64,000 nt of DNA from Nitrospira sp. GTDB lineage: Bacteria > Nitrospirota > Nitrospiria > Nitrospirales > Nitrospiraceae. The DNA lies in contig JARFXO010000001.1 of assembly GCA_029194665.1 (NCBI GenBank), forward strand, positions 1,092,484 through 1,156,483. Reading direction: 5' to 3'. Each line of letters begins with the position of its first letter. Position 1 is the stretch's first letter. Positions 24,510-45,159 of this stretch are shown in pieces. Below the pieces are notes generated by a model, which ran no database searches, had not been told where the DNA came from, and saw only the letters and a list, made by a program, of their open reading frames with translations. The position numbers and the translations under genes were made by a program.

Positions 24510-24515
24510 GGCGGA

Positions 24516-25355: not shown

Positions 25356-25379
25356 CTTGAAGAAATAGAATGCACCAGA

Positions 25380-26516: not shown

Positions 26517-28657
26517 GCCCCCAATTCCTCGAAGTTCTCTTGAATTTTCGCGGCTAACTCCGTCGCTTCTTTGTTGAGATCCGCCAGTTCGGTGTGGATA
26601 TCGCGCAGGGTCTGCTCGAAGTCGAAGTCTTCATCTTCTTCCGGTGGCGCGACGCCGACATAGCGGCCTGGGGTGAGGCTCCAGTCGGCGGTCTCGATGT
26701 CTTTTCGGTCCACGAGTTTCACCAGCCCTGGTACCGTTTTGAGTTCGGCCTTCGGGAAACGCTCTTGCAGCCACACAACCTGCCGGTGGAAATAGACGGC
26801 TTGCTTGAGTTGCTCGACAGCAGCCTTCCGTTGCCCATCGAGCTGCTTGAAGAGCTTCCCTGTCGCACGGCGATCGTAGGCTTCGGCGATGACTTCATTA
26901 CCCGCTAATTCTGCGCCGTGATCCGAGACCTGCGAAGCGAGCTTATAAAGCAGATCCACCTGTTTGATGAGGCCCCGAATCGCTTCCGCGATGGGATCGA
27001 ACACCTTGCGCGCGGCATGCTGCACCTCGTTCTTCTCGGGTAGCGCCTTCGCGTACTTCTGGCCGAAGGCCGATAAGCTCGCGAGGAGCTTCTTGGCATC
27101 GACCTCATAAAGCTTGTGCGCTTCGCGCAACTCGGTCACGGCGTTGGCGACCGACTCCTTCTTGTCGGCGTCAAGATCAGCCTGTTCGGCCACTGCCTTC
27201 GCGAGCACATCGAAACGTACGCGCAGATCGTCGAGCGTCTGCTCGAAGGGTGACAGTGCCCCGGATACGGCCGCGCTCTCGCCGCAGATGCGGCCAAGGT
27301 AGTTCTTTATGAGCCCAAGGAACCGCTTCTGCTGGTCACGATACAGCCACACGATTGCCGCGAGGTTCTGCATCTGCTCGGGTGAAAAGTCGTAAATCTT
27401 GCGCGTGACTTTTCGGTACACATTGCGGGCGTCCAGCATCAAGACGTTGTTCTTGCGCTCGGGCGGCTTATTCCGGTCGAAATGCCAAAGCTCACAGGGA
27501 ACGGTGCGGGTGTAAAAGAAGTTCGACCGGATCGAGATCATGACGTCCACGTCACCGGTCTCGACAATCTTCTTGCGGACTTCTTTTTCACCATGCCCAG
27601 CGCTCGACGCCTGAGACGACATGACGAAACCGACGCGGCCCTTCTCATTCAGGTAACTCCAGAAATATGAGATCCAGAGATAGTTGCCGTTGCTGACCTT
27701 CTTCTGTTTGTTGACGCCCGGCAGACCGAAGGGCAGACGCGGGTCGCCTTTGATGCGCTCCGCATCCACCAGATCCACGTTGAACGGAGGATTCGCCATC
27801 ACGAAGTCGCACTTGCCCGGCTCCAAAGCTTTCTTCGGCGCTAGATTATGTTCGTCCTGGTAATAGGTGAGCGCCTCGGCGATCTTCCCTTCCAGCCCAT
27901 GCACGGCGAGATTCATCTTGGCGATGCGGATCGTATCGCCGTTCTTCTCCTGCCCGTAAAAGACAACCTTCTTCGCCGTGTCGCCTCCCTCGTGCTCGAT
28001 GAAGTGGCTCGATTGTACGAACATCCCACCCGAACCGCAGGCCGGATCGAAGACCGTGCCATGGTTCGGCTCGATCACGTTGACGATCATTTGCACCAGC
28101 GACGACGGCGTGAAGAATTCACCGTTGTCATGGGCTTTTTGAATGGAAAACTCAGCGAGGAAATATTCGTAGATGCGCCCGAACACGTCTCCGGAGGCTT
28201 GCCGGATCTGCTCGCTGTTGAACAAGCGCATCAGATCTTCGAGTACCTTCGGCTCGAAAATGCCGTAGTCCTTCGGCAAGATGCCTTTGAGCGGCACGAA
28301 CTGGTCCTCGATAGTTGTCATGGCCTCCGTCACCAGCTTGGGCAAATCCACGCCGCTCACCGCGGCTTGCTGCATCAGCCAGTCGTAACGGGTTTTCTCT
28401 GGAAGGTAGAGAGCCCGGCGGGCGATGTAGTCCGCCGGTAAGACTCGGCGCCTCGGCATTTTGCCGCCGGCCTGATCGGCTTCAATCTTCTGCTGAGCGG
28501 CCTCGAAGCGATTGGCCGCATGGCGCAGGAAAATCACACCCAGCACGGGCATGAAATAGTCGCTTGATGTGAGCTTGGAATTGGCCCGGAGATTATCAGC
28601 AGCGTTCCAGAGGTCGGATTCGAGCTTCTCGATGTCTTTGAAGCTACCGTCCGTCAT
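26513..28657 (-). CDS. hsdM: Type I restriction-modification methyltransferase M subunit
   Basis: This 714-residue adenine methyltransferase contains an N-terminal HsdM_N helical domain (LESDLWNAADNLRA...), the AdoMet motif FDPACGSGGMF near 205, and the catalytic NPPF near 285 (VMANPPFNVDL). The C-terminal 200 residues are a long helical region, making it longer than classical HsdM proteins. It begins the operon hsdM-hsdS-abiEi-abiEii-hsdR. The promoter should lie in the 200-base gap upstream. Confidence 0.93.
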   Translation of the reverse strand: MTDGSFKDIEKLESDLWNAADNLRANSKLTSSDYFMPVLGVIFLRHAANRFEAAQQKIEADQAGGKMPRRRVLPADYIARRALYLPEKTRYDWLMQQAAVSGVDLPKLVTEAMTTIEDQFVPLKGILPKDYGIFEPKVLEDLMRLFNSEQIRQASGDVFGRIYEYFLAEFSIQKAHDNGEFFTPSSLVQMIVNVIEPNHGTVFDPACGSGGMFVQSSHFIEHEGGDTAKKVVFYGQEKNGDTIRIAKMNLAVHGLEGKIAEALTYYQDEHNLAPKKALEPGKCDFVMANPPFNVDLVDAERIKGDPRLPFGLPGVNKQKKVSNGNYLWISYFWSYLNEKGRVGFVMSSQASSAGHGEKEVRKKIVETGDVDVMISIRSNFFYTRTVPCELWHFDRNKPPERKNNVLMLDARNVYRKVTRKIYDFSPEQMQNLAAIVWLYRDQQKRFLGLIKNYLGRICGESAAVSGALSPFEQTLDDLRVRFDVLAKAVAEQADLDADKKESVANAVTELREAHKLYEVDAKKLLASLSAFGQKYAKALPEKNEVQHAARKVFDPIAEAIRGLIKQVDLLYKLASQVSDHGAELAGNEVIAEAYDRRATGKLFKQLDGQRKAAVEQLKQAVYFHRQVVWLQERFPKAELKTVPGLVKLVDRKDIETADWSLTPGRYVGVAPPEEDEDFDFEQTLRDIHTELADLNKEATELAAKIQENFEELGA

Positions 28658-28855: not shown

Positions 28856-29263
28856 CTACGCCCCGCCGTCGCGCATGGCCGATAGATGCTTCATCGCTTC
28901 ACGTGCCGCCGCGCGCGCTTTCGTGGCTGGATTCAAGCTCGCGCCGGGATCGACTTTGTCGCCCATGTCCGCCACCCGCTTACAGTGGGTGATGGCCTCC
29001 TTGAGGAACGGCGCCGCCGCTTGGCCGTGCGGATCATCTTTGGGCAGGAGGCCGAGAATCGCCGTCGCATGTTTGGTCACTTCTCCGCAATGGTGGATGA
29101 TCGCCCCGCCATCACCCATGCCTCCATGCATGACCATTTCCTCGGCATCCCGAAGCATCGCCTGACCATGGTCCTGAATAACTTTCGCTGGCCCTGCCAA
29201 TACCAGGCTCGCGCCGGCGGCAACTGCCAGGAGAGTCGCGACGAAGATCTGCACGGATTTCAT
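28856..29263 (-). CDS. SmbP-like His-rich secreted metal-binding protein
   Basis: This 135-residue protein has a signal peptide (to about 24, ALAG...), then helices with regularly spaced His, Met and Asp/Glu residues (QDHGQAMLRDAEEMVMHGG, IIHHCGEVTKHATAIL, KEAITHCKRVADMGDKV). This resembles SmbP, a small periplasmic copper/metal-binding four-helix protein of nitrifiers. ATG 29263 overlaps the stop of the upstream gene in TGATG, so translation is probably coupled. A TTG at 29266 is a less likely start. It fits a copper buffering role beside the multicopper oxidase. Confidence 0.7.
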   Translation of the reverse strand: MKSVQIFVATLLAVAAGASLVLAGPAKVIQDHGQAMLRDAEEMVMHGGMGDGGAIIHHCGEVTKHATAILGLLPKDDPHGQAAAPFLKEAITHCKRVADMGDKVDPGASLNPATKARAAAREAMKHLSAMRDGGA

Positions 29264-29772
29264 CAAAAGACTCGGCCTTTCTTCACTGGTGCCTGATCGA
29301 CCGGCGTGAGCCGGCGATACAGCGCGTGAAATTGCTCCGTTGTGAGCGCGGGATTTTCCAGCTCCATGAGCTGCTCGACAGTGACAGGATATTCCACGGT
29401 ATCGTCGAAGCTGGAGGACGCGATCGCCACATAATGGGGCGGGAAGAGACGCTCCGGCAACAAAATGCTGACATCCCGATTGTACTTCTTGGCCATCCGG
29501 ATGGCGGCGCGGGCCCGCTCCGCAGTGACCGATGGACCCAGGCCGATATTGGTCGGCGGTTTCCCCGCCTTCATGAATTGCACGTGAAGGTTCGTGAGAC
29601 CCGCCTCGGCGAATTCCTTCTTGATCTCCTCCAGGTCCTTACGATGTTCGTTTGCCAAGACCACTTCAACCCGTCCCGACGATGTGACATTGTCCGGTTG
29701 CTCGGCGAGTGTACTGATCGTCGGCATGCCGAGAACCATCGCGAGACACAACCCATGGAGACCTCTTTTCAT
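29263..29772 (-). CDS. Secreted protein of unknown function in copper cluster
   Basis: This 169-residue protein has a signal peptide (about 1-23) and a basic-acidic mature domain with VEVVLANEHRKDLEEIKKEF and ISPE-like alpha/beta pattern; one central segment (NIGLGPSVTAERARAAIRMA) suggests a small alpha/beta fold. No family is recognised. Its start overlaps the end of the upstream gene by four bases, and its stop overlaps the SmbP-like start, so all three are likely co-translated. Confidence 0.65.
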   Translation of the reverse strand: MKRGLHGLCLAMVLGMPTISTLAEQPDNVTSSGRVEVVLANEHRKDLEEIKKEFAEAGLTNLHVQFMKAGKPPTNIGLGPSVTAERARAAIRMAKKYNRDVSILLPERLFPPHYVAIASSSFDDTVEYPVTVEQLMELENPALTTEQFHALYRRLTPVDQAPVKKGRVF

Positions 29773-30554
29773 TCGAGGACTCGTTTCGCATCAAACAACC
29801 AGTCAAGCGAGAGGGTCTCGTTCGGCTTCACGGTGATATCTCGCTCTTGACTCCCCAAAATCGGGTGCCAGGCCTTGAGGTGGTATGTGCCTGCTGGGAT
29901 GTCGCCGATGGCAAACGATCCACTGCTGTCCGTGACAGCATAATACGGATTGTCGATCGCGTACCCCCAATTCTGCATGTAGGGATGCATGCCGCACTGC
30001 ATGGTAAACACTTTCCGCCCTTTGACCAGATTCACGATGTCGGTGGTCCCGCTCTCATGCAGGGCGGGCCGATGGAGGACAATATCGACCCCTGCTTCAT
30101 TGTACGCATACCCTTGAATATCATGTAATACCGGATCTCGATTGAACACCGTGACTCGACGCTTGTCGCTGACCACGGTGACGAAGGGTAGGAACTGACA
30201 AAGGCTTGCTTCCACTTCGGCATCGGTGAAGGTGAACGGCTTGCCTCTCTCGATGCCCTCCAGGACCACCACCACATCTTTGAGCCCGCCGTCCGGCCCG
30301 ATAGTGACTTCCTTCAAAAGCCGATGCCCATTCCCGTCCGACACCGCGCTGCAGAACTCTTGGTCAGGAGACCGACGCAGCTCGAACTCTTTCGGATCCG
30401 GCACGGTTCCGGTGAACGTGACTTTACCCCGCACGACTGCGCCATTCTCTACAGTCGCTGATTCATACGCCCCGGCATCTGCTTGAATTCCCAACATCAA
30501 GATAGCCGACATGGAGCCGGCTAACGACAGTTCTCTCAGATACGGTTGTCTCAT
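29769..30554 (-). CDS. Secreted carboxypeptidase-regulatory/cupredoxin-like protein
   Basis: This is a 261-residue protein. ATG 30554 follows GGAGGGG; an earlier ATG at 30569 is less well placed. After a signal peptide comes a beta-rich domain (VVRGKVTFTGTVPDPKEF) with the redox/copper-type features CQFLPFVTVV, VLHDIQGYAYN and MQCGMHPYMQNWG (Cys-Gly-Met-His). The C-terminus has a SFAIGDIPAGTYHLKAWHP segment typical of transthyretin-like CarboxypepD_reg domains. Proteins of this plan occur with methylamine-utilisation and copper genes. It may bind copper in the periplasm. Confidence 0.75.
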   Translation of the reverse strand: MRQPYLRELSLAGSMSAILMLGIQADAGAYESATVENGAVVRGKVTFTGTVPDPKEFELRRSPDQEFCSAVSDGNGHRLLKEVTIGPDGGLKDVVVVLEGIERGKPFTFTDAEVEASLCQFLPFVTVVSDKRRVTVFNRDPVLHDIQGYAYNEAGVDIVLHRPALHESGTTDIVNLVKGRKVFTMQCGMHPYMQNWGYAIDNPYYAVTDSSGSFAIGDIPAGTYHLKAWHPILGSQERDITVKPNETLSLDWLFDAKRVLE

Positions 30555-30573
30555 ATCCCCTCCGATCATGCAT

Positions 30574-31167
30574 TCAGGGTTGCGTGGCTGCTGGATTCGC
30601 GTTATCCAACCGTCGCGGAAGTTCAAATAGTAGCGAAGATTGCTCAGCGAAGATCAGTCTGCGAAACTCTTCCGACCATTGCCCCTGCTTGCTCACCGTC
30701 TTGAGTGGAAATCGTTCGGCCTTGGTTACCCATCGGTAATATTGTCGGATTTCACCATTTTCGACGATGGTCACTTCGAACAACTCGGTTGGATGGCCGT
30801 TCAGCGTCTCATCCCCCACGAACTCTCGGGAGACCTCCCCATCCATCTTCTCGGTCACCGTCAACCGATGGTCGCTCGCAATCGGGACTTCAAGGTACTG
30901 GCGTCGTTTCGAAAAAATGAGCCACGACTGCTGCTTGTCCATTCGAACGATCATGATGCTTGCCCCGCTTTGGGGTTGAGCGTACTCAAACCGCCAGCGA
31001 TCGTTCTTGGCATTGACGTGAGCGGTCACAACCGATCCTCCACTTTTCACGACGCGATCGGCGGAAAAATCAAACGCTGCGGCCGTTTGTGCCGGATTGC
31101 TCATAAGGGTCGCTGTCAGCCAGATCAGGGGTAACCCGGCTGAGGTGCGCGGTCGGCGCCTGCTCAT
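30574..31167 (-). CDS. LolA-like/DUF4412-type secreted protein
   Basis: This 197-residue protein has an N-terminal signal peptide and beta-strand pattern FDFSADRVVKSGGSVVTAHV, with WRFEYAQPQSGASIMIVRMD and YYRWVTKAERFPLK. This is the pattern of the LolA/LppX-type half-barrel proteins that hold hydrophobic ligands or outer-membrane lipoprotein precursors. It lies 20 bases upstream of the cupredoxin-like gene. It may be a ligand-binding or assembly protein for this cluster. Confidence 0.65.
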   Translation of the reverse strand: MSRRRPRTSAGLPLIWLTATLMSNPAQTAAAFDFSADRVVKSGGSVVTAHVNAKNDRWRFEYAQPQSGASIMIVRMDKQQSWLIFSKRRQYLEVPIASDHRLTVTEKMDGEVSREFVGDETLNGHPTELFEVTIVENGEIRQYYRWVTKAERFPLKTVSKQGQWSEEFRRLIFAEQSSLLFELPRRLDNANPAATQP

Positions 31168-31288
31168 GGATTATTTCTACCGCATGAATCAGATGGGTTC
31201 AAGACACTGTTCACGGCCGACAACGGAACGGGGGAACCCGACCCTCACCTGGCCTGGCTCCCCCGCCTGTTAGGTCTCCAATTGAGGC

Positions 31289-34200
31289 CTACTTAGCCTG
31301 CAGGGACACCGGTATGGACTGCGCAGGAGTCTGGTCTCCGGCCTGTTGGGTAGCCGGAACCTGACTGCCTAACGGTAGGATTGTGCGACTGTCACGACTC
31401 AGGACCCTCAGCATCCCCCAGTGACCGGCATCGAGATACCCGGGGCGTTGGTTGAGCCAGAGATAGTCGCCGGGAATTCCGTTCGGCCCTCCCGCTCCAC
31501 CATTGAGCCAGGCGTTTATGACCTCGGACCCACCAAACTCCATGGTGCTCACGAGATCCGCTCCCGCCAAATAAGGCTCATGTTTCCATTCATGGCCCGA
31601 AACGCTAAAGAGCTGCACCTGCTCGCTGAAGGCACCTAGGACGTGAATGACGACCGGATCCCCGACGTGCGCCGCGATGGTCGGTGTCACCGGCTGATCG
31701 CCCGTTTTGACGCAGACGAACACTTCGCTATACGCACAGCCCTTCTCGGTCCGGTAATCGGTCGGCTCCGACCGATAGTTCACCGCCGTCACGCCGGCCA
31801 CCTTTTGGATGTACGGCATGAAGCTGGTGCCGATTTGGTTATCTTCGTCCTGGAACAGCAGCGCGAACGACCGGTAGTTCTGCTTGGTTTCGTTCCCCGG
31901 CGCGTTGCGATCCACCAGCACATCGGCGCGCCATGAGCTCTTCTGCGCGAGGTCCTCGCCGCTGACCGGATCGCGATACTGCGATCCCCTCGGACCGATG
32001 ATAATCGCTCCGAAGAGCCCGTTCCGCGGGTTCTCGATCACGTTACCCCAATCCTGGATCAGAGCCGCGTTTTCCCCAAATTCCGGATGGGCGTAGAACG
32101 TGTAGGTCCGGCTTTGTCCCGGTGCGACCGACTGATCGCCAGGGTTGTTACCGACGTTGATGCCCATCGACTCTTTCGGATCGTACGCCAGATTGTCCAC
32201 GTGGAACCCGGCCCGCTCCCTGGCCATGTCGTTCTTGAGATTGACCTTGATGCAGTCGCCGACGTTGACATGGAGGGTCAACGGACTCGGCTCAAGACTT
32301 CCCGAAGCGACTTTCGTCTTCTCGCCTTCGAGCACATACATCTTGCCGGTTTCGTTCCCCAACACCATCTTTCGTTCAAGGTCCACCTCCATCACACCGG
32401 GCGTTCCTTTGTTGTAACGGATCCCCTTATCGATGGCGGAGACGTTGAAGCTTTTTATCGGAGCGTCGGCAGGACAGACTGATTTGGCAGGCTGTGGAAT
32501 CTCGGTTCGGCCCGGCAGCGGCTGCAAGGTACCGTCGACCTTGTCCAAGATCCGGAAGAGTCCCCAACTGCCTTCCGCAAAATGCGACGCGCGACCGCTG
32601 TGGTACAGATAGTCGCCAGCCATCTGCTGCGGTCCGCCTGCGGCCGGAATGGCCGCGTCATACCGCTCCCCGATGACTACGTGCAGCGTGCTCCGTGGTA
32701 TGGAGTTTTTGCTGTATCGTTCCATCGGGAACCAATGGCCGCTGATGTGCCAGGAATGGACTTCGTTCGCCGACCCTTCGAGCAACCGGACCACCACCGG
32801 ATCACCCAGATAAGCTCTGAGCATCGGCGTTTCAGGATCTCCATGAATCCGGCTGTTGAACAGCTGTGACGGATCGGGATTGTTCGCCAACCGGACCGAA
32901 AGAGGCTCCACACGCATGTTGTACCCACTTCCGGTGGTCGCTTCACCGCCGCTCAGGAACTTCATCGGCGACACATTGAGCTTGGCCGGATACACCGCGG
33001 AGGGCGTCCCGTCCACAGAAATCGCACCGGCTTTCGCCTGAGGATTGTCGGTTGTGATCAATTCTGCAGCCCGAGGATTGGAATCCATGACATGCGTCAC
33101 GATCTCGCGGAACGAGCCGGTGATATGCGCGGACACCGGTTCCGTGGTGTGAATATCGGCTATGGGTCCGCTACGGATTTCCTTGCCGGTCACTGGATCA
33201 TGATAGGTGGACCGGGGCGGCTCAGCGATGAACGTCGCGAACTGCCCGTGGCCCCACGAGTCCAATCCGAACACATGGTCATGCCAGAAGGTGGTCCCGA
33301 AATCGGCATCCACATACCACCGTTCGCGGATCCATTCAACCGAGACGATCTCGCCCTTCTTATGGTGATACTTCAGCGGGCGCTCGAACGTGATGTGGTT
33401 GCCGTCGATCTTACTGATCCGAGCCGACTCAAACCGGCCCACTTCGTCCATTCCCACCCCGAGTTCAGTCTTCACGTGAAAGCGCGACGCATTCTTGACC
33501 GTGATGGTCGTCGTCCCCTTCGCCACGTCGGCTTCGATCGTCGTATTCATCGGCACCGGCATCCCCTTGCCGGGATGCTCATCCTTCAGGATCGTGAAGG
33601 GTCGCAACGACATCTCGTAGGAGAAACCGATGATCGGTCCGTCGGAGGCCTGCGTATCGAATTGGAACATATGCGGATGCAGGTTCGTCTTGCTCGAGAA
33701 CCCTTGCCGCTGGTCGTCCTTGAGTTCGCTCTTATACACGACGTCGACGCAGTCCTGCACGCTGCCGCGGATCACCAACGGCATCTGCTTGGCTGGATTG
33801 TTTCGAACCTCGGCCTCCTCTTCATGCAGCACATAGAGCAATGCGTCCGGATCCACGATCGCCGGCGTCTTGGCCGTCGCCTTTTTCAGCGTGACCGGCA
33901 ATGTGATCGCGTGGATGTTGAACTCCTTGAGGGGCGCCCCTTGCGGGCAGAGGCTCCAGGGCCCGTTCTCGCCCGGCTTGGCCGGCTCGGTCGAATTACT
34001 GCCGTCATCGCGACGATGGATCGGCTCCAACCAAGGTGCGCCGCTGTGGCTCGGCGAGAAAGGCACGCGCCGGCCGAGATGAGGCCGCAGCCACGGCCAC
34101 GAGACTTTTCCGCTCCGAGGATCGAAGAGGATCTCCTGCCGCTTGCCCGGCGTCGCCGACTTATAGTTCACCCATTCGTACGCGGTTTCAGGCTCGGTCA

Positions 34201-35998
34201 TCGCCTGAGTACCGTTCCAAGCCCAGTCGTTCACTGTGGAGTCGTAGGCCAGGGACTGCTCCTTCTCCGTGTTCTTGTGTCCCGGCTTGCCTTGCGGCGG
34301 CAATTGCATCTCCACCCAATCCTTCACGGACACCCTGGCCGGATTGGCCTTCCAATCGGTCTTATCTTTGGTGATTTCGAACTTCTTGCCGCCGTACCAG
34401 TCCACCGTCGTACCGACGAGCTTTTCGCTGCCGACTCCCATCTTCATGCGGCCGATTCGATCGGGCAATTCAACCAGCGGCTTCATCACGTCGGTCTGAA
34501 AGCCAGGCGCCTGCAGCGAGTTGTACACGCGCCAAAACCCCCACATGCCGGTCACATAGTGCTGAGGAATGTGGCAATGGAACACGAACTCCCCGGCTAA
34601 GGCCTGCAAGCCGCCGGACCCACCCTCGATCACCTGATCGTAGATCTCCGTCGGACCGATGGATTGCACATCGACACGATCCGAGGTGTCGCTGATGAGC
34701 GGAAACTTCACCGGTCCGTTCTTCGACGCAGCGAAGTCCAGATTGCTGTTTCCCGGCTGTCTGGCCCAGCGGATGGACCCGCCGTGCAGATGGTGGGAGT
34801 GGACGATTTCCGACCCGCCCGCCATCCGGAATTTGGCCGGATCGCCGAGATACGACCGAGGAATGGTCGTGGCCGGATCCCCGAACGTGTACGACCCGTA
34901 GCCCATGGACTCATCGGCATAGAAGCCCATGTGGGCTTGCAGTTCCAGGCGTGAGCCGTGCGGCTCGCTGCGATAGTTCAGCAGCCGCGCACCAGGACGG
35001 TACGAGTCGGTGTGAGGATCGCGCTGAGGCAACATTTCGCCCTTCTTGTTCAAGAGGCGGAAGGCTTCGTCTCCCGCCTCATGATAGAAGATTGCGAATT
35101 CGCGGAAATCCGCGCCGTTCGGATCTTCAATCATCGCTTCCCAGCCGCTGGGCATCGGCTTGCCGTCGAATGGACTCAAGTACCGGGAGCCGCGCGGCTC
35201 CACGACGAGCATGCCGATCAAGCCCTGATTGAACTGCTCGCGTGAGGCGTGTGAGCGGAAGAACCGCGCCCCTTCCTGCGTGTCGGGCCTGATGTACCAT
35301 TCGAAGCTCTGCTGCTTGCCCGACGCCACAGTCGTGTCCGCGTTCGACGGCGTCGCCGGCTTGCCGCTGGACGACACGACCATCGACGAGCCATTGATGA
35401 CAAGATTCGTCGCTTCATCCGGGATGTCATTGTGCAGGGTGAGTTTAAGACAATCTCCCTGGTTCGCGCGGATTACGAGCGGCTGGATGACATCACCTTG
35501 CAGGCCGTTCGATATCGCACCGGGGTCATTCTCTTTCTCACGCGCCTCCCTGTTGGCTGTTTCCTCTCCCCGCGCCTTCTCCACGTTTTCGGTCAACACG
35601 TACATATAACCGGGGAAATAATCGAGGAATCGGCTCAGGGTGATTTCGACGTTGATGGCTGAGACGTGATACTCTTTTACCGGCACATTGGCCGGGCAGC
35701 GCTGCCCGTTGTTCACCGCCACCTTGGACGGGTCTTCTGCTACCAGCAACACACCCTGTTGGAGCATGTGGCTGTTGGCGCCGCTCGTGTACCCGCCCTT
35801 CTCTCTGATGAATTCTTGCTGTCGCTTGACCTCGTCCATCATGCGGTCGTGCAGGATCGACCCGCCTTCACGATAGATGACCTTTTCCGACGACGCCTGT
35901 CCCGCATCTGCGTGATGATTGTGCCGCTCTGCCGCGAATCCTATCGGCGCGAAGGCGAGGCTACTCGCCAACGCCAGGCCTTGGAATCGCCGCATCAT
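31289..35998 (-). CDS. Giant multi-cupredoxin multicopper oxidase, secreted
   Basis: This is a 1569-residue protein; ATG 35998 follows AGGAG and gives a signal peptide (GLALASSLAFAPIGFAAE). Several cupredoxin domains carry copper ligands: HSHHLHGG near 398, FHCHIPQHYVTGMW near 471 (T1/T3 type), HPHMFQF near 769, FWHDHVFG near 903, HSWHISGH near 1078, and YHSGRASHFAEGSW near 1130. Size and motif order are far larger than laccase-type CueO and recall the large MnxG/McoA-type oxidases, so Mn(II) or another metal is a possible substrate (inference). It leads a minus-strand cluster with copper-binding proteins and has a sigma-54-like promoter upstream. Confidence 0.85.
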   Translation of the reverse strand: MMRRFQGLALASSLAFAPIGFAAERHNHHADAGQASSEKVIYREGGSILHDRMMDEVKRQQEFIREKGGYTSGANSHMLQQGVLLVAEDPSKVAVNNGQRCPANVPVKEYHVSAINVEITLSRFLDYFPGYMYVLTENVEKARGEETANREAREKENDPGAISNGLQGDVIQPLVIRANQGDCLKLTLHNDIPDEATNLVINGSSMVVSSSGKPATPSNADTTVASGKQQSFEWYIRPDTQEGARFFRSHASREQFNQGLIGMLVVEPRGSRYLSPFDGKPMPSGWEAMIEDPNGADFREFAIFYHEAGDEAFRLLNKKGEMLPQRDPHTDSYRPGARLLNYRSEPHGSRLELQAHMGFYADESMGYGSYTFGDPATTIPRSYLGDPAKFRMAGGSEIVHSHHLHGGSIRWARQPGNSNLDFAASKNGPVKFPLISDTSDRVDVQSIGPTEIYDQVIEGGSGGLQALAGEFVFHCHIPQHYVTGMWGFWRVYNSLQAPGFQTDVMKPLVELPDRIGRMKMGVGSEKLVGTTVDWYGGKKFEITKDKTDWKANPARVSVKDWVEMQLPPQGKPGHKNTEKEQSLAYDSTVNDWAWNGTQAMTEPETAYEWVNYKSATPGKRQEILFDPRSGKVSWPWLRPHLGRRVPFSPSHSGAPWLEPIHRRDDGSNSTEPAKPGENGPWSLCPQGAPLKEFNIHAITLPVTLKKATAKTPAIVDPDALLYVLHEEEAEVRNNPAKQMPLVIRGSVQDCVDVVYKSELKDDQRQGFSSKTNLHPHMFQFDTQASDGPIIGFSYEMSLRPFTILKDEHPGKGMPVPMNTTIEADVAKGTTTITVKNASRFHVKTELGVGMDEVGRFESARISKIDGNHITFERPLKYHHKKGEIVSVEWIRERWYVDADFGTTFWHDHVFGLDSWGHGQFATFIAEPPRSTYHDPVTGKEIRSGPIADIHTTEPVSAHITGSFREIVTHVMDSNPRAAELITTDNPQAKAGAISVDGTPSAVYPAKLNVSPMKFLSGGEATTGSGYNMRVEPLSVRLANNPDPSQLFNSRIHGDPETPMLRAYLGDPVVVRLLEGSANEVHSWHISGHWFPMERYSKNSIPRSTLHVVIGERYDAAIPAAGGPQQMAGDYLYHSGRASHFAEGSWGLFRILDKVDGTLQPLPGRTEIPQPAKSVCPADAPIKSFNVSAIDKGIRYNKGTPGVMEVDLERKMVLGNETGKMYVLEGEKTKVASGSLEPSPLTLHVNVGDCIKVNLKNDMARERAGFHVDNLAYDPKESMGINVGNNPGDQSVAPGQSRTYTFYAHPEFGENAALIQDWGNVIENPRNGLFGAIIIGPRGSQYRDPVSGEDLAQKSSWRADVLVDRNAPGNETKQNYRSFALLFQDEDNQIGTSFMPYIQKVAGVTAVNYRSEPTDYRTEKGCAYSEVFVCVKTGDQPVTPTIAAHVGDPVVIHVLGAFSEQVQLFSVSGHEWKHEPYLAGADLVSTMEFGGSEVINAWLNGGAGGPNGIPGDYLWLNQRPGYLDAGHWGMLRVLSRDSRTILPLGSQVPATQQAGDQTPAQSIPVSLQAK

Positions 35999-36300
35999 CT
36001 CGGCTCTCCTCCGTCTCCGACTCTGTTCAAACTGAGTGGACCTCATATCTCGGCCTCCTCTCCCTGGTATATTCGCCTCATCGGGCGGGTTGTTGATGTC
36101 TGCTCCTTGATAGGCATTTCACTCGTCCTCTTCATCATTTCATTATTGCTATTGGGATTAGGACCCGGCCTCCGAACCACTTCCGGCCTCTTATCTCGGG
36201 AGGATTAAGAGCTGGTGAAGGGTTCCTTCTTACGAAGGAATGGGTCATTCGGAGGCCGGTCCAAAATCACCCAAACCCTCACCAGCAACTTTTTCATAGG

Positions 36301-36316
36301 GCAAGCGTCGTGCCTT
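36301..36316 (-). promoter_or_regulatory. Sigma-54 (-24/-12) promoter for the multicopper oxidase cluster
   Basis: Read on the minus strand the sequence is AAGGCACGACGCTTGC: GG and GC separated by exactly ten bases, close to the consensus TGGCAC-N5-TTGC. It points toward the multicopper oxidase, about 300 bases away. Two sigma-54 activators are encoded within 8 kb. The match is strong; function is inferred. Confidence 0.55.
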
Positions 36317-37489: not shown

Positions 37490-38044
37490 TCACACCTTCA
37501 CCTTTGTAAGGTGCAGGTTCGGACACCAGTCCACTTCCGCGTGGCGTGCCAGTTCCATGAGCTGAATCGGAACCGGACTGGCTGGTCGATCGTGCGATAC
37601 TCCTACACATCTCGAACAAATAAACTGACAGTGAGACAGACAGGATCGATCAGGACAACCTCCGTCAGCACCTACTTTGGCCGACTGCTGAAGACAATAG
37701 GCGACCGCATTCGGCGCGCCGAGACTTTCCTGATAGCATCGGAGGGCGATGTAGAAGTTGATCCGGCTCGCGACGGGTCTATCTTCGAGCAGAATCTTAA
37801 CGTGATGCAGGTCCCAGGCTTCCTCGAGCAATCGAGCAACGGTCTCGGCCGACTTTGGAAAATCATCGAAGAGGGCAACGTACAGCGCGCCTTCTTCATC
37901 AGCCTCTACGTCGTAGGTCGGCGCCATTCGGACCAGCCCGAGCAAAGCCGGAGCTTCGACCACCTGAGCCTCAGGAATGGCGATTGAGAGACGCACCGCC
38001 GGCTCCCGCGAGGAATTGTAATGTGGGATGATCCGACATCGCAT
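37490..38044 (-). CDS. Cys-rich protein of unknown function (putative metal-cluster site)
   Basis: This 184-residue protein has an acidic N-terminal domain with hydrophobic helices (VRLSIAIPEAQVVEAPALLG, DFPKSAETVARLLEEAWDLH) and a cysteine group near the C-terminus: GGCPDRSCLSHCQFICSRC (five Cys in 17 residues), followed by a last Cys in WCPNLHL. Such spacing could bind zinc or an iron-sulfur cluster. The start ATG 38044 lacks a strong ribosome site, and an overlapping frame (37971-38204) occurs upstream, so the true start is uncertain. No family is named with confidence. Confidence 0.6.
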   Translation of the reverse strand: MRCRIIPHYNSSREPAVRLSIAIPEAQVVEAPALLGLVRMAPTYDVEADEEGALYVALFDDFPKSAETVARLLEEAWDLHHVKILLEDRPVASRINFYIALRCYQESLGAPNAVAYCLQQSAKVGADGGCPDRSCLSHCQFICSRCVGVSHDRPASPVPIQLMELARHAEVDWCPNLHLTKVKV

Positions 38045-38563: not shown

Positions 38564-39973
38564 CTATTCGATACTATAGGCACGGAGTTTGTTGTAGAGA
38601 CTCGCTCGGCTGATTTTCAGCAACTTGGCTGCTTTCAATCGGTTTCCTGCAGTTTTTTGCAACGCGTCCACGATCCGAGAGCGCTCGGTCTGAGCCACAG
38701 CCCCGCGTGACGCGGACCGTAAACTTTCGCGTTCAGGAACGACGCCCCCTGAAACCAAGTCATCGCACACAAGCCATGGCCCGGCGGTCGTTACCACAGC
38801 CCGTTCGATGTAATGTTGCAATTGTCGGACATTGCCGGGCCAAGGAGCGTCACGCATAGCCCGCATCGTTTTTTCCGCAACCTGCCGCACCGCTTGGTGG
38901 TGTCGAGCGCAGGAAGCGGCGACGAAGTGCTGGACTAACAGCGGGATGTCTTCCCGCCTCTCCCGAAGCGCCGGCAAAGAAAGCGGCAGCACGGCCAGTC
39001 GATAGTAAAGATCCTGCCGAAACGTCTTGGCCACCACCAGTTCAGCCAGATCCTTGTTCGAGGCAGAGATGACACGTGCGTGAATCTTGATTGTTCGCGT
39101 TCCGCCGACCGGTTTGATCTCGCCCTCTTGCAGAACACGGAGCAGCTTCGCCTGAAAGGTCGGCGTGGTATCGGCGATCTCATCAAGAAAGATTGTTCCT
39201 CTTTCAGCCTCCTCGAACAGGCCGCGCTTGTTTGCCACCGCCCCGGTGAAGGCTCCTTTGACATGCCCAAACAGTTCGCTTTCGAGCAACGTCTCGGGCA
39301 ACGAACCGCAATCAATCACGACAAATGGTCGATCCCTCCGGTTGCTGAGCCCATGAATCGTTTTCGCCAGGAGTTCTTTTCCCGTTCCGCTCTCCCCTTG
39401 AACGAGAACGGCCGCCGAACTGTCCGCCACCAGGCTGGTCATGTCGAAAAGCTGCTGCATGGCCGGACTCCGGCCGATCAGGCCACCCAGCGATTCTCGC
39501 ACGGCAGAGGGGGGGTGTTCCGTTTCCGCAGGCATCACCTCTCGCGTCGTCGGAGCCGGCTCCTTCTTAAACAGCACCAGCATGGAGCCGACCTCGCCTC
39601 GACTCGAAGCTAAGGGAAACGCCTGCCTCATCCCGCAGGCCGTGCCGTCTCCTCCACTCGAACAGGACACGCACTCCACCCCAGGCGCCTCAAACACCTT
39701 TATGGCCGGACAAGTCCCGCAAGGGTCCGTCCGGTGCGCAAACGCTTCGTAGCACTTGGCGTGAGACCGGTTACTTTTTGCAGCTTGGTCCGCTGACCAC
39801 GCCGCGTCGTTCGCGTACACGACGTTGAACGATCGGTCCATGACCGCCACACGATCGGACAGTCCCTGTGCTAATTGCTTAATCGCTTCGACTCGTGCGG
39901 TAATGACGGGATCGACCGACAAAGGTTCTGCGGGGATTTGTGCATCGGACACGATGAGCTCGCTCCCCAACAT
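38564..39973 (-). CDS. Sigma-54-dependent transcriptional activator with Cys-rich PAS domain
   Basis: This is a 469-residue bEBP. A PAS-type sensor domain (about 35-145) contains [18 protein letters not shown] and further Cys ([14 protein letters not shown]), a spacing found in redox- or metal-sensing PAS domains. The AAA+ domain follows (about 165-385), with Walker A GESGTGKE, the sigma-54 contact GAFTGA ([11 protein letters not shown]), Walker B IFLDEI and the arginine region RREDIP. The Fis-type helix-turn-helix is at the end ([20 protein letters not shown]). It lies about 100 bases downstream of a lone receiver. Likely targets include the nearby sigma-54 promoter at 36301. Confidence 0.9.
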
Positions 39974-40073
39974 GAAGAGCTTACGGAAGGTGGTTGATGG
40001 TCTATGCCATGAAAACGAAGGTCACGGCCGAAACCATCGGCGTTTCTTCATTTCCGCCATACGTCATATGCCA

Positions 40074-40472
40074 TCAACTCTCAGCTCCCTGCTTGTGGTC
40101 GAGCAATTGTTGCACACAGTTCTTGAGGTCTGCAATGCGGACCGGCTTGTCGAAGTAGGCGCTCGCACCAGCTTTCACTACCTGCGCTTTCAGGGTCGCG
40201 TCGCCGAACGCGGTGATGACGACAATGGGACACTTGGGCGCTACTGTCCGGAGCCGGCTGATGTAGTCATCTCCTCCCGCCGGCATGCGCAGGTCGGTAA
40301 GGATCAGATCCGGTTCGGATTGCAGGACCGCCACAAATGCTTCGTCTCCATTCCTCGCTTCGCGCAGCTGGTACCCCATTCCGCAAAATTCATCGCACAG
40401 CAAGTTGCGCATCTCTCGGTCGTCCTCGACGATCAGGACCCTGGCTGTTGTTCTGTTTTCCACCAACGCCAT
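40074..40472 (-). CDS. Single-domain response regulator
   Basis: This 132-residue protein is one receiver domain: acidic pair in VEDDRE (D17-D18), acceptor D60 in ILTDLRMP, Thr near 87 in VITAFGD, Lys near 109 in FDKPVR. No output domain is present. It lies between the kinase gene at 40672 and the sigma-54 activator at 38564, in the same direction, so it may pass the kinase's phosphoryl signal on. Confidence 0.85.
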   Translation of the reverse strand: MALVENRTTARVLIVEDDREMRNLLCDEFCGMGYQLREARNGDEAFVAVLQSEPDLILTDLRMPAGGDDYISRLRTVAPKCPIVVITAFGDATLKAQVVKAGASAYFDKPVRIADLKNCVQQLLDHKQGAES

Positions 40473-40671: not shown

Positions 40672-42186
40672 CTATTGGCTCATCGGCAGCAGGACGGTAA
40701 AGAGGGTTCCGCTCCTTTCCTTGCTCTCTACAGCAATGGAACCTTGGTGTTCTTCAATGATCCCTTTCACCACGGTCAACCCCAGGCCGGTTCCTTTCCC
40801 GAACTCCTTCGTGGTAAAGAAGGGATCGTAGATCCTCCTGATGACCTCCGACGGAATTCCGTGACCGGTATCAGCGATCGTGAGTTTCACCATCGCTTGC
40901 TCCGGCTCCAAACCGACTCGAAGCGTGCCTCCTTCCGGCATCGCATGGAGGGCGTTCATGATGAGGTTGATCAGGACTTGGCTTATCTGGTCCGCGTCGG
41001 CCAACACCATGGGGCAAGGGTCGACCATTTCCATGTCGACCCGAATCTGATTCGTTGCGAGACGCTCCTGAAACATCTCGATGCTGTCCTCGATCACTTT
41101 TTTGAGGTCAAGCGGAACGCGCAGCGGAGCTTTGCGACGAGCAAACGAGAGCAGTTGATTCATCACCCGCGTAATCCGCTCAACCTGCGTGATGATCGTC
41201 TGAAGGCCTCTTTTGATCGGCTCCTCCGTCACACGATCCATCAGATATTCAGCTCGACCAAGAATCACGTTCATCGGCGTCCCGATTTCGTGCGCCATGC
41301 CGGACGCCAGCGTCCCAAGTTCAGCGACCCGCTCAGTCCTCCGCAATTGTTCTTGAAGCCGTTTCCTCTCGCTGACATCTCGGAGCATGATCAAAATTGC
41401 CGGTCCCTCTTCGTCGACAAATCGAGCTCCACTGACTTCTACATGCGCAGTCCTTCCGTCGAGCGTTTCGATTTTCTCCTCAAGGATGAGCCCTTGTGCC
41501 CCTTCTTCAAACAGTTCGTCGATCCGCTGTCGAACGATGTCATGGTCATCGGCATGGAACAGGTCCATGGGCGACTTATCGAGGATCTCCTCTGCCTTCA
41601 CTGCCCCGAACAACTTGATCGCCTGGTCATTAGCAAAGATGATCCGGTTGCCCCGATTCACGAGGATCGCATAGGGTGAGATGGCAATCAGACGCCGGTA
41701 ACGTTCTTCGCTTTGGCGCAGCAAGCGTTCAGCACGCCTACGTTCGGTGATGTCTCGGAGAATGACGGTATAGTATGTTTGTCCCTCTACGACGATATGC
41801 GAAATAGCGGCCTCAATCGGAAACTCTTCACCATCGGCTCGCAGCCCCGACACGGAGCCTAAGCGACCCATTTTCCGACTCGTGACACCGGAGTGCCCGA
41901 AATCCTGAACTTGGTGATGGTGTGCTTCGCGGAAGCTGGCGGGCAAGAATCGATCGAGCGGCTTGCCGATGGCATCCTCGATAGAACAACCGAACATCCG
42001 TTCGGCAGCTCGGTTGAACAACACCACTCGTTGGTCCTCATTGACGGTGATAATCGCGTCCATCGCAGATTCAACGATGCCTTCCAGCCTAAGTTGGCTG
42101 ACGAGGAGCTGTTGCTCCGCCTTTTGACGGTCGCCTCTAGCGTCACCTGTATCTGAGGTCGATTGCGCCTCGTGTCTCCCCATCAC
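40672..42186 (-). CDS. PAS-PAS sensor histidine kinase
   Basis: This is a 504-residue soluble kinase. A first PAS spans about 30-150 (SAMDAIITVNEDQRVVLFNR, ends VILRDITERRR), a second about 160-280 (ISPYAILVNRGNRIIFANDQ, ends IMLRDVSERKR), followed by HisKA with the H box MAHEIGTPMNVIL near 298 and HATPase (NLIMNALHA, DTGHGIP, GTGLGLTV). The fold and ending (FFTTKEFGKGTGLGL) are of the NtrB/HupT kind that pairs with NtrC-type regulators. Its partner is probably the NtrC-type gene transcribed just upstream (gap 155 bases). Confidence 0.9.
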   Translation of the reverse strand: MMGRHEAQSTSDTGDARGDRQKAEQQLLVSQLRLEGIVESAMDAIITVNEDQRVVLFNRAAERMFGCSIEDAIGKPLDRFLPASFREAHHHQVQDFGHSGVTSRKMGRLGSVSGLRADGEEFPIEAAISHIVVEGQTYYTVILRDITERRRAERLLRQSEERYRRLIAISPYAILVNRGNRIIFANDQAIKLFGAVKAEEILDKSPMDLFHADDHDIVRQRIDELFEEGAQGLILEEKIETLDGRTAHVEVSGARFVDEEGPAILIMLRDVSERKRLQEQLRRTERVAELGTLASGMAHEIGTPMNVILGRAEYLMDRVTEEPIKRGLQTIITQVERITRVMNQLLSFARRKAPLRVPLDLKKVIEDSIEMFQERLATNQIRVDMEMVDPCPMVLADADQISQVLINLIMNALHAMPEGGTLRVGLEPEQAMVKLTIADTGHGIPSEVIRRIYDPFFTTKEFGKGTGLGLTVVKGIIEEHQGSIAVESKERSGTLFTVLLPMSQ

Positions 42187-42341: not shown

Positions 42342-43721
42342 TCATTCCTCCGGATGAGGCTTGCCCTCGATTTCGGCGAGTTTACGATACAGGGTCTTGC
42401 GGTCGATGCCAAGGGCGTGAGCGGCCTGATATTTATTCCCCCCGGTCTTTTCGAGAATCTTCTTAATGTACTCTTTCTCGAGCTCATGCAACGGCAGAGT
42501 TTGCTCGGATGCTTCGTCCAGTACACGCCGGTCGCCACGGGCTCCTTGCACCGCCGAGGGCAGATCATCCGGAGAAATCTTCTCCCCCCGGCTGAGCGTC
42601 ACAGCCCGTTCGACGACATTCTCCAGTTCTCGCACGTTACCGGGCCAGGTATAGTCCATCAACATCGCGAGGGCGGCCTCACTGACACCCTTGACCTCCT
42701 TTCCTCGCGCCTCTCCGCACTTCTTGAGAAAGGCCTCTACCAGGAGCGGAATATCCTCACGTCGCTCCCGGAGCGGCGGCAACTTCAGCTCGATCACATT
42801 GAGTCGATAATAGAGGTCCTCGCGGAATCGCTTGGTCCTCACTTCTTCACTGAGGTTCAGGTTGGTGGCCGCGATGATGCGCACATCCACCGAGATGGGC
42901 TTGGTCGCACCCACCCGTCGGATTTCTTTTTCCTGAATCGCACGAAGAATTTTCGCCTGAAGCATGAGCGGGAGCTCACTGATCTCATCCAGAAACAACG
43001 TGCCTTTCTGTGCTTCTTCGAACAATCCCCGCTTGTCCATCTTCGCGTCGGTAAAGGCGCCTCTCATATGCCCGAACAGCTCGCTTTCCAGGAGCTGCTC
43101 CGGAATCGCCGCACAGTTAACCGGGATAAAGGGAGCATCCTTTCTGTCACTATTGTAGTGGATCGCTTTGGCGACCAGTTCTTTCCCGGTGCCGCTTTCT
43201 CCTGTGATGAGCACGTTGGTCGGACTATCGGCCACGCGCCGGATTAAATCGAACACCGCCTGGATCGCCTTGCTCTTCCCCAGGATATGGTGGAAGCTGT
43301 ATTCCTTTCGGACTTCTCTCCTGAGCCGGCTGACTTCCCGCCGTAAGGCCGCTTCCCTCATCACCCGTTCGACGACCCGGATTAGTTCGTCTTTCTTGAT
43401 CGGCTTGGTAAGGTAGTCGCTCGCCCCGTGTTTCATGGCTTCGACCGCTGTTTCCACCGACCCAAACGCGGTCATGAGGATCACGTTGATATCGGGATGG
43501 TCTCGTTTGATATGAGTCAGCAACTCAAGTCCTTGCATGCCTTTCATGCGAAGATCCGTAAGGACGACTGCATGGTCTGTTTCGGTCAATCGTTTCAGAG
43601 CTTCATCACCGCTTCCGGCCATCGTGACCTGATGACCTCGGTCTTTCAGCATGTCCTGGGCCAATTCCCGCATGTCGGCGTCGTCATCGACGACGAGGAT
43701 CGCGCGCCATTCTTCAGTCAT
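42342..43721 (-). CDS. NtrC-family response regulator with GAFTDA variant
   Basis: This 459-residue regulator has a receiver (acidic pair D12-D13, acceptor D56 in VVLTDLRMK), an AAA+ domain with GESGTGKE and FLDEI, and a Fis-type helix-turn-helix (GGNKYQAAHALGIDRKTLY). The sigma-54 contact loop reads GHMRGAFTDA rather than GAFTGA. A change of the second Gly to Asp is seen in some regulators and can alter sigma-54 interaction, so it may be an activator with different properties. It probably forms a pair with the kinase downstream at 40672. Confidence 0.9.
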   Translation of the reverse strand: MTEEWRAILVVDDDADMRELAQDMLKDRGHQVTMAGSGDEALKRLTETDHAVVLTDLRMKGMQGLELLTHIKRDHPDINVILMTAFGSVETAVEAMKHGASDYLTKPIKKDELIRVVERVMREAALRREVSRLRREVRKEYSFHHILGKSKAIQAVFDLIRRVADSPTNVLITGESGTGKELVAKAIHYNSDRKDAPFIPVNCAAIPEQLLESELFGHMRGAFTDAKMDKRGLFEEAQKGTLFLDEISELPLMLQAKILRAIQEKEIRRVGATKPISVDVRIIAATNLNLSEEVRTKRFREDLYYRLNVIELKLPPLRERREDIPLLVEAFLKKCGEARGKEVKGVSEAALAMLMDYTWPGNVRELENVVERAVTLSRGEKISPDDLPSAVQGARGDRRVLDEASEQTLPLHELEKEYIKKILEKTGGNKYQAAHALGIDRKTLYRKLAEIEGKPHPEE

Positions 43722-43995: not shown

Positions 43996-45159
43996 CTAGA
44001 CGGAGGATAATGGAAGGGTGAAGCTGAATGAGGATCCATTCCCCGGAATTGATGTCACCCAAATGCCTCCCTCATGGGCTTCAACGATCCATTTGGCTAT
44101 AAAAAGCCCAAGGCCAAGCCCTTGACGGTCGGCCACATTGAGTTGAGAGAACCTTTCGAAAATTCGGGCCTGTTCCTCCGCTGAGATCCCCGGTCCGTTG
44201 TCGGTTACCGAGACTTCAACGAAAGTCTCTCGTTTGCGCACAGACAGATCAATGGCGCCTCCCCTGGGTGTAAACTTCAGTGAATTTCCGATCAGGTTTG
44301 ACAGCACTTGAAGAATTCTATCGTGATCGATGTCGACGAATAGAGGCTCAACCCCTGCCTCAATCCTCATGGAAAGCCCCTGATTTGACGCGAGTGGGGT
44401 GAAGAGTTCACGACATTCTCGTAACAGAGATCGAAGGTCGACCCTTGCAAGGTGGAGCGTCAGTTTGCCCTGTGCCATTCGCTCTACATCAAGCAAATCG
44501 CTTATCATTCGACCCATGGCGTCTGCGCTGTGTTGGATTCGTCCAAGGTGTTCTAGAAGACTACCGGTCTCGCCTTTGGAAAGGCTTTTTCGCATCAAAC
44601 GCGCGCTGATCCCGATAGCGGCGAGGAGGTTCTTTAAATCGTGACTGACTATGGAGAGAAAGTGTTCCCTCGTAATAAGCTCGCTATCCTCGTGGATTCG
44701 CTCATCGAGGAGATGGCTGTCGGTTTGTTGACGTTCATGTTCGAGGAGTGCGCCGACGAGTAATTGCTTTTGAGCGCCTTCCTCTGCGCGAATACGATCC
44801 ACGGCTTGTCGCTCAGCCGCTTGTAATTCGTCGAATCGTTCTCGCTCCTCAGACAAGAGTTCATCATCTATCTGTGACAGGAGAGTATCGGCGCTTGCAC
44901 GGAAGTGTGCTTTGTCGTCGTCCAGGGCCTCACGTTGACTTTCTTTAGCCTGATCAGCGGCATGCCGAATCGAATGGACTTTCTCGCGAGTCTTTTCTTC
45001 GACCGTTTGAAATGGGTGTGTCAAATATTCATCCGTCTTGTCACGTTCCTCCTCTAAACTCCGGTCGGTCTTCTCTCGCAGCTCCTCAGTGGATGTTGTT
45101 CCCGTAAACTCCATGGATCGACGTTTCTCCTCTTGATGCTCGGGCAATGGCGGGATCAT
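43996..45159 (-). CDS. Histidine kinase with long N-terminal coiled coil
   Basis: This is a 387-residue kinase; an alternative start is ATG 45114 (MEFTGTTST). The first 150 residues are almost all charged helix (SLEEERDKTDEYLT, KAHFRASADTLL, ERERFDELQAAER), probably a coiled coil without membrane segment. The kinase core follows: HisKA H box FLSIVSHDLKNLLAAIG near 172, HATPase with NLIGNSLKF, VTDNGPGIS and GLGLGLFIAKW. No regulator lies in the same unit; its promoter region is the 120-base gap before 45283. Signal and partner are unknown. Confidence 0.85.
   Translation of the reverse strand: MIPPLPEHQEEKRRSMEFTGTTSTEELREKTDRSLEEERDKTDEYLTHPFQTVEEKTREKVHSIRHAADQAKESQREALDDDKAHFRASADTLLSQIDDELLSEERERFDELQAAERQAVDRIRAEEGAQKQLLVGALLEHERQQTDSHLLDERIHEDSELITREHFLSIVSHDLKNLLAAIGISARLMRKSLSKGETGSLLEHLGRIQHSADAMGRMISDLLDVERMAQGKLTLHLARVDLRSLLRECRELFTPLASNQGLSMRIEAGVEPLFVDIDHDRILQVLSNLIGNSLKFTPRGGAIDLSVRKRETFVEVSVTDNGPGISAEEQARIFERFSQLNVADRQGLGLGLFIAKWIVEAHEGGIWVTSIPGNGSSFSFTLPLSSV

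Follow-up and report, generated by a model that had tools for sequence, protein, structure and literature searches.

A giant six-domain multicopper oxidase of comammox Nitrospira encoded behind a predicted sigma-54 promoter and a conserved leader RNA

Members of the genus Nitrospira are the dominant nitrifiers of soil, wastewater and drinking-water filters. Whether they also oxidize manganese is an open question (PMC12070406), and a locus of a comammox Nitrospira encoding a giant multicopper oxidase (MCO) raises the question of what this enzyme might oxidize and how its synthesis is controlled. Within the analyzed window of 64,000 nucleotides, the MCO gene is followed by four small open reading frames on the same strand, as had been proposed in the original prediction:

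31289..36046, minus strand: giant six-domain multicopper oxidase of 1585 aa, predicted to be secreted (open reading frame, Pfam, alignment to MnxG)
30574..31167, minus strand: secreted protein of 197 aa, a conserved member of the operon, match to DUF4412 below cut-off (profile and neighbourhood comparison)
29769..30554, minus strand: secreted protein joining a cupredoxin domain of the blue-copper type to a CarboxypepD/transthyretin-like domain (P0003; fold and ligands)
29263..29772, minus strand: secreted 169-aa protein of no known family, retained in the two main MCO clades
28856..29263, minus strand: small metal-binding protein of the SmbP family (Pfam PF16785)

The start codon of the MCO is very probably the ATG at 36046 (1585 aa) rather than the one at 35998 (1569 aa), since a Shine-Dalgarno (SD) sequence GGAGGCC and a Met-Arg-Ser start at this position are kept in relatives. 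The earlier description of a secreted oxidase of about 1569 residues thus holds for the long open reading frame and its predicted secreted-type N-terminus, with the length to be corrected. The protein displays the general hallmarks of MCOs (HxxHxH, HCHxxxHxxxxM/L and two HxH groups), and both Cu-oxidase_2 and Cu-oxidase_3 of Pfam score above cut-off. Its putative T1 ligands, H416/C491/H496/M501, reside in domain 2 and the putative trinuclear ligands, H419/H421/H490/H492/H790/H792/H922/H924, in domains 2 and 3. Together they form the four groups H416xxH419xH421, H490-C491-H492xxxH496xxxxM501, H790xH792 and H922xH924, found in the motifs HSHHLHGG, HCHIPQHYVTGM, LHPH and WHDH. Three of these had been recognized before, whereas LHPH had been overlooked and HSWHISGH was wrongly counted in its place among four groups. 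We rejected the latter as a copper site of the MCO set: it belongs to domain 4, which has YLYHSGRASH in place of the Cys motif that would pair with it, and with histidines kept in at least 52 of 55 relatives it constitutes a conserved remnant. A lack of the T1 Cys-His pair or of trinuclear ligands had been named beforehand as grounds to abandon the assignment; at the level of sequence all of them are present, and the 12 ligand residues are without exception invariant in an alignment of 55 relatives. An AlphaFold2 model of the MCO domains (residues 105-1185) was poor (pLDDT 48.5); the ligand sites are assigned by sequence. Because the ligands are invariant and the gene order of the operon is conserved across dozens of genomes, both the MCO and its operon are beyond chance.

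The sole full-length relative of known structure is MnxG from Bacillus (PDB 9bxa; E 2e-98, and 1e-122 in a profile search), which makes a metal oxidase a fair reading of the MCO. The two proteins are co-linear at about 30% identity. In each, six cupredoxin domains follow one another in matching order, domain 2 holds the T1 site and the trinuclear site lies between domains 2 and 3. The sequence thus appears to conform to the bacterial six-domain, MnxG-like pattern, in which, as described earlier (PMC3600357), domains 2 and 3 supply the trinuclear ligands and domain 2 the single T1 site. However, the Nitrospira protein is larger, it carries HCHIPQHYVTGM near the T1 site where MnxG contains HCHLYPHFxxGM, and its partners are a cupredoxin and SmbP, with neither MnxE nor MnxF seen. 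It scores 121 bits against the MnxG equivalog NF041487 (NCBIfam), whose cut-off of 3100 excludes it from membership, and in a tree it separates from MnxG proteins on long branches. The suggested resemblance to Mn oxidases is therefore borne out by the closest solved relative and weakened by the score, the tree position and the surroundings of the T1 site. A closer counterpart is found in Ca. Manganitrophaceae (PMC9040806; L063), a Mn-oxidizing lineage of the phylum, whose MCO belongs to the same family at 60% identity.

An MCO in Nitrospira and Nitrospina was noted in 2013 (Luecker et al., PMC3578206) and a role in Mn chemistry has been proposed earlier (PMC3578206, PMC12070406). The enzyme of Nitrospina gracilis and Ca. 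Nitrospira defluvii, characterized in the relevant passages of the former report as periplasmic and MnxG-like, very probably represents the same family; the operon, its promoter and the leader RNA are not described in those passages. The same authors suggested that the MCO produces Mn(III), which would consume superoxide. The similarity to MnxG and the reported lack of superoxide dismutase and catalase in both organisms (PMC3578206) agree with such a defence against reactive oxygen species, but at the present locus neither regulators nor partners show any link to it, and we regard this function as improbable.

The MCO family is present in 191 of 196 Nitrospirales genomes and, within our sample of the phylum, is confined to the class Nitrospiria. 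Given its occurrence in nearly every Nitrospirales genome, the MCO is not the marker of a special Mn-oxidizing strain. A comammox-specific role of the clade A copy was rejected, as several clade A genomes contain no match to amoA. This broad distribution would also suit a general role in nitrifier electron transport, where the cupredoxin draws electrons from the nitrite or ammonia chain and hands them to an MCO that acts as soluble oxygen reductase or overflow valve, with metals not being its substrate. A cupredoxin gene adjoins most MCO copies, deep paralogs included, and the MCO of N. gracilis and N. defluvii was described within a cluster of NXR and a bd-like oxidase (PMC3578206), both of which point in this direction. 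Yet the closest solved relative is a Mn oxidase, the SmbP of the operon hints at metals and a soluble oxidase would not conserve energy, leaving a function in electron transport rather unlikely.

The downstream genes were largely identified as anticipated. The cupredoxin, whose likely start is the ATG at 30554, was modelled with AlphaFold2 at a pLDDT of 80.6, and its residues 80-171 match plastocyanin, nitrosocyanin and Cupredoxin_1 (Z 9-11). Besides this fold, it contains the His and Cys-x-x-His-x-x-Met ligands of a T1 site (H168, C211, H214 and M217, numbered from the start of the open reading frame at 30626). Of the same-family cupredoxins in this genome, three out of four are located beside giant MCOs. 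The SmbP assignment was confirmed with 37.7 bits in PF16785 against a cut-off of 29. Also as proposed, the last three genes show the signature of translational coupling: the cupredoxin stop overlaps the start of the 169-aa protein in ATGA (29769-29772), and the stop of the latter overlaps the SmbP start in TGATG (29263). The label LolA-like for the 197-aa protein (P0002) was not sustained, since it matches no LolA profile and its best hit, DUF4412, is below threshold.

The elements that may govern expression are located, as are the regulators encoded upstream, beyond the stretch covered by the original prediction (leader RNA 36211-36286, regulators 38564-45159). Around the start of the transcript we find:

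36300..36315, minus strand: predicted sigma-54 (-24/-12) promoter AGGCACGACGCTTGCC, kept in relatives (motif conservation)
36211..36286, minus strand: predicted structured leader RNA of 76 nt, three-way junction (covariation)
36251..36262, minus strand: near-invariant hairpin GGACCGGCCTCC of the leader RNA, in which GGCCUCC complements the ribosome-binding site of the MCO gene
36183-36190, minus strand: GAGGCCGG, shorter copy of the loop complement
36165..36176, minus strand: TTCGGAGGCCGG, another sequence complementary to the RNA loop and possible competitor of the ribosome-binding site
36052..36058, minus strand: MCO ribosome-binding site GGAGGCC

The regulators are encoded further upstream:

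38564..39973, minus strand: sigma-54-dependent activator with a Cys-rich N-terminal region
40672..42186, minus strand: soluble PAS-PAS histidine kinase
42342..43721, minus strand: NtrC-type response regulator
43996..45159, minus strand: soluble histidine kinase

The conserved sigma-54 promoter of clade A is a new observation. A site scoring at least 9 out of 11 precedes 26 of 28 clade A relatives, compared to about 5% of shuffles, and operons of this clade are often close to an NtrC-type two-component locus, whose response regulator is 84-96% identical in most of the neighbourhoods possessing one. In clade B, the site accompanies all eight copies that have an NtrC system beside them and none of the 11 that lack one (p 1e-5), an association that reflects only three independent changes in the tree and is thus weaker than its p-value looks. 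With a GG-N10-GC promoter, and with rpoN and an NtrC-type activator in the genome, the locus has the predicted makeup of a sigma-54 operon. The soluble nature of the kinases, with no hint of periplasmic metal sensing, was counted against a metal oxidase under two layers of control. A giant MCO controlled by a pair of sensor kinases together with a single response regulator is known from Pseudomonas putida GB-1 (mnxG/mcoA and MnxS1/S2/R; PMC11930936, PMC8218464), likened here by description, although its MCO is only remotely related. The regulators also bear on a role in copper homeostasis, where a large cuprous oxidase, with SmbP and the cupredoxin, would shield a copper-rich nitrifier from Cu(I). 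The presence of these two proteins in the operon, and of the copper resistance protein CopC both behind a relative on a Streptomyces plasmid and near an MnxG-like gene of Priestia, would fit this role, which we nevertheless consider unlikely, as the operon lacks a copper pump or copper regulator and is linked to sigma-54/NtrC and soluble kinases instead.

From the position of the promoter, transcription is expected to start near 36289, and the MCO transcript is predicted to begin with the three-way-junction RNA. In the alignment of this leader, 94.4% of cells are paired and double-sided changes occur at 22 of 28 pairs (146 cells), a result obtained in 0 of 500 shuffles, with slid controls being far lower. 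The leader is found in 151 of 196 genomes. Of 18 further contexts of sufficient length, 17 show a giant MCO open reading frame behind it, as does one partial case; one copy (L053) precedes a different gene. Unlike in Nitrospirales, it was not detected (R1/R2) in Ca. Manganitrophaceae L063, nor in 15 Nitrospiria genomes outside Nitrospirales. Its position in the 5' leader and the base-pair covariation are those of a cis-regulatory structured RNA, which probably helps to control the MCO gene. This conserved leader is previously unlisted: the stretch in the window has no same-strand match in Rfam at E<=1, and the copies L064, L111 and L022 have none at the gathering score.

A function as translation switch is likely, because the loop and the ribosome-binding site of the MCO gene have complementary sequences. 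The pairing between the loop and the SD region has a median of -19 kcal/mol and beats about 99% of shuffles. GGAGG is contained in 62 of 63 MCO SDs and is extended to GGAGGCC in 37 of these 62, as opposed to 13 of 147 control open reading frames with a GGAGG SD, the former count being too low, as overlapping GGAGGAGGCC or GGAGGGAGGCC were scored on their first five bases. The SDs of clade B often have only the CCUCC/GGAGG core in common with the loop, in three clade B copies the loop reads GACCTCC but the SD has not changed in step, and the competing loop complement is absent from part of the leader copies. As in translation-controlling riboswitches and anti-SD leaders, a covarying 5' structure exposes a loop able to cover the ribosome-binding site, whereas no family in Rfam matches the leader. 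We tentatively suggest, as a possibility short of even odds, a new class of metal- or metabolite-sensing riboswitch that is mostly dedicated to one enzyme family, its invariant GGAYYGRCCUCC loop covering the ribosome-binding site of the giant MCO in most Nitrospirales, atop a sigma-54 promoter. The element could instead act as DNA or as a plain 5' structure that stabilizes the mRNA, in line with P1 being a long inverted repeat directly past the promoter and with the protection that a stable 5' hairpin may offer. Since all three stems P1, P2 and P3 covary, with the sequence of P3 changing freely, and since the loop hardly varies and complements the SD, we find this explanation doubtful.

Taken together, our preferred reading, to which we assign a probability of about 0.5, is that of a periplasmic or cell-surface metal-oxidizing MCO under two layers of control. 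The enzyme would take up single electrons from a reduced metal and reduce O2 to water, with Mn(II) as first guess for its substrate, followed by Cu(I) or Fe(II). The cupredoxin may exchange electrons or copper with the MCO and SmbP may buffer copper. The NtrC-type system would switch on transcription, upon which the leader RNA would set translation, with GGCCUCC of its loop pairing either with GGAGGCC at the ribosome-binding site in an off-state or, in many copies, with the nearer GAGGCCGG in an on-state.

A near-universal MCO of Nitrospirales with its own cupredoxin and control at the levels of transcription and RNA is a prime candidate for Mn oxidation or a core redox step. Whatever opens the leader RNA is likely tied to the purpose of the MCO and, if it is indeed a riboswitch, the identity of its ligand would point to the substrate of the enzyme.

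The giant multicopper oxidase (MCO) of the window is preceded on the same strand by a short structured RNA and a candidate promoter:

31289-36046, minus strand: MCO, a single open frame of 1585 codons
36211-36286, minus strand: predicted leader RNA, a 76-nt block between promoter and start codon
36300-36315, minus strand: predicted sigma-54 site with intact GG-N10-GC, conserved in relatives

The oxidase family is already known; its substrate and electron partner we can only infer. Pfam matches Cu-oxidase_2 and Cu-oxidase_3 in the protein, and the NCBIfam model of MnxG reaches 121 bits (2e-35) at a cut-off of 3100. MnxG in the entry 9bxa is the one full-length relative in the Protein Data Bank (2e-98 with a single sequence, 1e-122 by profile), and the alignment with an MnxG-like protein from Priestia is co-linear, with 30% identity. 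Since 9bxa contains Ala340 where Priestia MnxG and relatives carry the T1 histidine, the solved protein is probably a T1-site mutant. In an alignment of 55 full-length relatives of 52–91% identity, the window's own copy being one of them, H416, C491, H496 and M501, which would constitute a complete T1 set, and H419, H421, H490, H492, H790, H792, H922 and H924, which would complete the trinuclear set, are invariant in all 55. These sites were assigned from the alignment, the structure model of the MCO being of too low quality to use, and their order equals that of bacterial six-domain oxidases, where the trinuclear centre resides between domains 2 and 3 (PMC3600357). With both ligand sets found by alignment, the metal-oxidase-like operon of the original prediction is real and intact. 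The proposal of HSWHISGH as a fourth copper motif did not hold, as it is located in domain 4, where the partner motif lacks the cysteine. Its histidines (32735-32758) are retained in at least 52 of the 55 relatives despite the lost copper site, and the motif is possibly another metal site.

Two of the predicted partners were borne out, the SmbP-like protein as SmbP (P0005) and the cupredoxin-like protein (P0003) by its fold and conserved residues. The latter is secreted, and at least 51 of its 53 relatives share His168, Cys211, His214 and Met217; Pfam detects just a carboxypeptidase-regulatory domain, and residues 80–171 of its AlphaFold2 model (pLDDT 80.6) form a cupredoxin matching plastocyanin, nitrosocyanin and Cupredoxin_1. 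The secreted 197-residue protein P0002, described as LolA-like, is conserved yet not recognisable as LolA, and the 169-residue P0004 matched no known family, its single weak match being a designed ferredoxin-like protein. The order MCO, P0002, cupredoxin, in some cases the unknown protein, and SmbP is repeated across many Nitrospira. A second MCO clade (67–72% identical) shows the MCO followed by a cupredoxin or unknown protein, with SmbP frequently next; some of these loci lie back to back with the first-clade operon. The window's genome encodes four P0003-type proteins, three of which adjoin giant MCOs. Its second giant MCO, on another contig (G000:C4:310000-345000; L073, L074) and 55% identical, is followed by two more cupredoxins, a HEAT-repeat-like and a formylglycine-generating-enzyme-like protein; this locus lacks the leader RNA as well as a clear sigma-54 site. 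The window's operon is abutted by a type I restriction-modification-like cluster (20242-28657), which is absent there in most relatives; an hsdM-like gene is also found in the related locus L003.

The leader RNA, which starts roughly 3 nt downstream of where transcription is expected to begin, is predicted to fold into a three-way junction (z -5.3 for the window copy). In an unfitted MAFFT alignment of 32 sequences, 96% of pair cells are standard, with covariation matched by none of 500 shuffles. Across 57 copies from three MCO clades, in an alignment that was fitted to the model and thus leans towards it, 94.4% of cells are paired and both sides change at 22 of 28 pairs (146 cells; 0/500 shuffles). 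Pairing falls to 51–59% when the partner is shifted by one column. Stem P1 is paired in 100% of cells, with both sides changed in 8 of its 11 pairs, and hardly any variation is seen in the terminal hairpin GGAYYGRCCUCC.

The loop sequence GGCCUCC is the exact complement of GGAGGCC, the ribosome-binding site of clade A, which includes the window's MCO, and of clade C. GGAGG is found in the Shine-Dalgarno sequence (SD) of 62 of 63 copies, and GGAGGCC in at least 37 of 62 leader-linked SDs (a script undercount) compared to 13 of the 147 GGAGG-bearing ORFs that served as controls. The leader copies are related and hence not independent, but clades A and C differ at half of their residues and the stretch between RNA and SD is poorly conserved. 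The predicted pairing of loop and SD (median -19 kcal/mol) exceeds about 99% of same-region shuffles. For 41 of the 63 copies, still stronger binding to the loop is predicted for a nearer sequence, GAGGCCGG, located about 20–40 nt past the RNA. Alternative pairing of the loop with the SD or with its competitor GAGGCCGG would thus have the layout of a translation switch, which is weaker in clade B because often only the CCUCC/GGAGG core is shared there.

In the window's genome, the RNA model finds one site, directly 5' of the window's MCO. Among 196 Nitrospirales genomes, 151 contain the RNA; it was absent from the 15 other Nitrospiria genomes searched. Additional contexts were retrieved for copies with no obvious clade A or clade B MCO beside them. 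Wherever the sequence is long enough (L102-L118, and partly L121), the first large ORF on the same strand, starting about 120–300 nt after the RNA, encodes a giant MCO, which mostly belongs to the distant paralogs; the fragment L119 ends ahead of the following gene. Upstream of nearly all of these copies lies a sigma-54-like site, with no match of the simple pattern at L112. One copy (L053:9444-9518) is located before an unrelated secreted, outer-membrane-like protein of 227 residues. Rfam returned no same-strand match (E ≤ 1) for the RNA in the window stretch and none at gathering score for L064, L111 and L022, and our literature search found no description of it; the leader RNA appears to be new.

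The link of the operon to sigma-54 likewise appears new. Of 28 clade A relatives (the window counted once), 26 have a site of at least 9/11 at a similar position, compared with about 5% of shuffles. In clade B, all 8 copies with an upstream NtrC-type system carry the site and none of the 11 without it does, an association for which the tree permits just three independent contrasts. Among 19 clade A copies examined for this link, all contain the site and 11 have a system nearby. The window's genome contains rpoN, and 38564-45159 encodes an NtrC-type regulator together with two soluble kinases, and also a further sigma-54 activator. This arrangement parallels in design the two sensor kinases and response regulator reported to control mnxG and mcoA in P. 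putida GB-1 (PMC11930936, PMC8218464), with homology being only putative. The sigma-54 activator (38564-39973) has a cysteine-rich N-terminal region and a small neighbouring ORF (37490-38044) is also cysteine-rich; a role in redox or metal sensing is possible for both.

Such an MCO was described in 2013 for N. defluvii and N. gracilis, together with a Mn(III)/ROS idea (PMC3578206), Manganitrophaceae have two MCOs each (PMC9040806), and a sand-filter study from 2025 suggested that Nitrospira with 'MnxG' oxidise Mn (PMC12070406). The latter term may denote two different things, since a minority of Nitrospira also contain other giant MCOs with HCHxYPHF motifs (L085-L087; G005, G023, G045), and these lie far nearer than the window's MCO to the MnxG equivalog model. 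The nearest relatives of the window's protein are found in Nitrospira MAGs. A locus labelled Nitrosospira (L018) encodes a typical Nitrospira clade A MCO and is probably mislabelled or mis-binned. In a phylum sample, all family members among the matches listed fall within the class Nitrospiria. The window's genome is that of a comammox Nitrospira and contains an ammonia monooxygenase gene. Of the 196 Nitrospirales genomes sampled, 191 contain the family, as do 148 of the 150 good ones, and it is therefore a core trait, neither the speciality of one strain nor tied to comammox.
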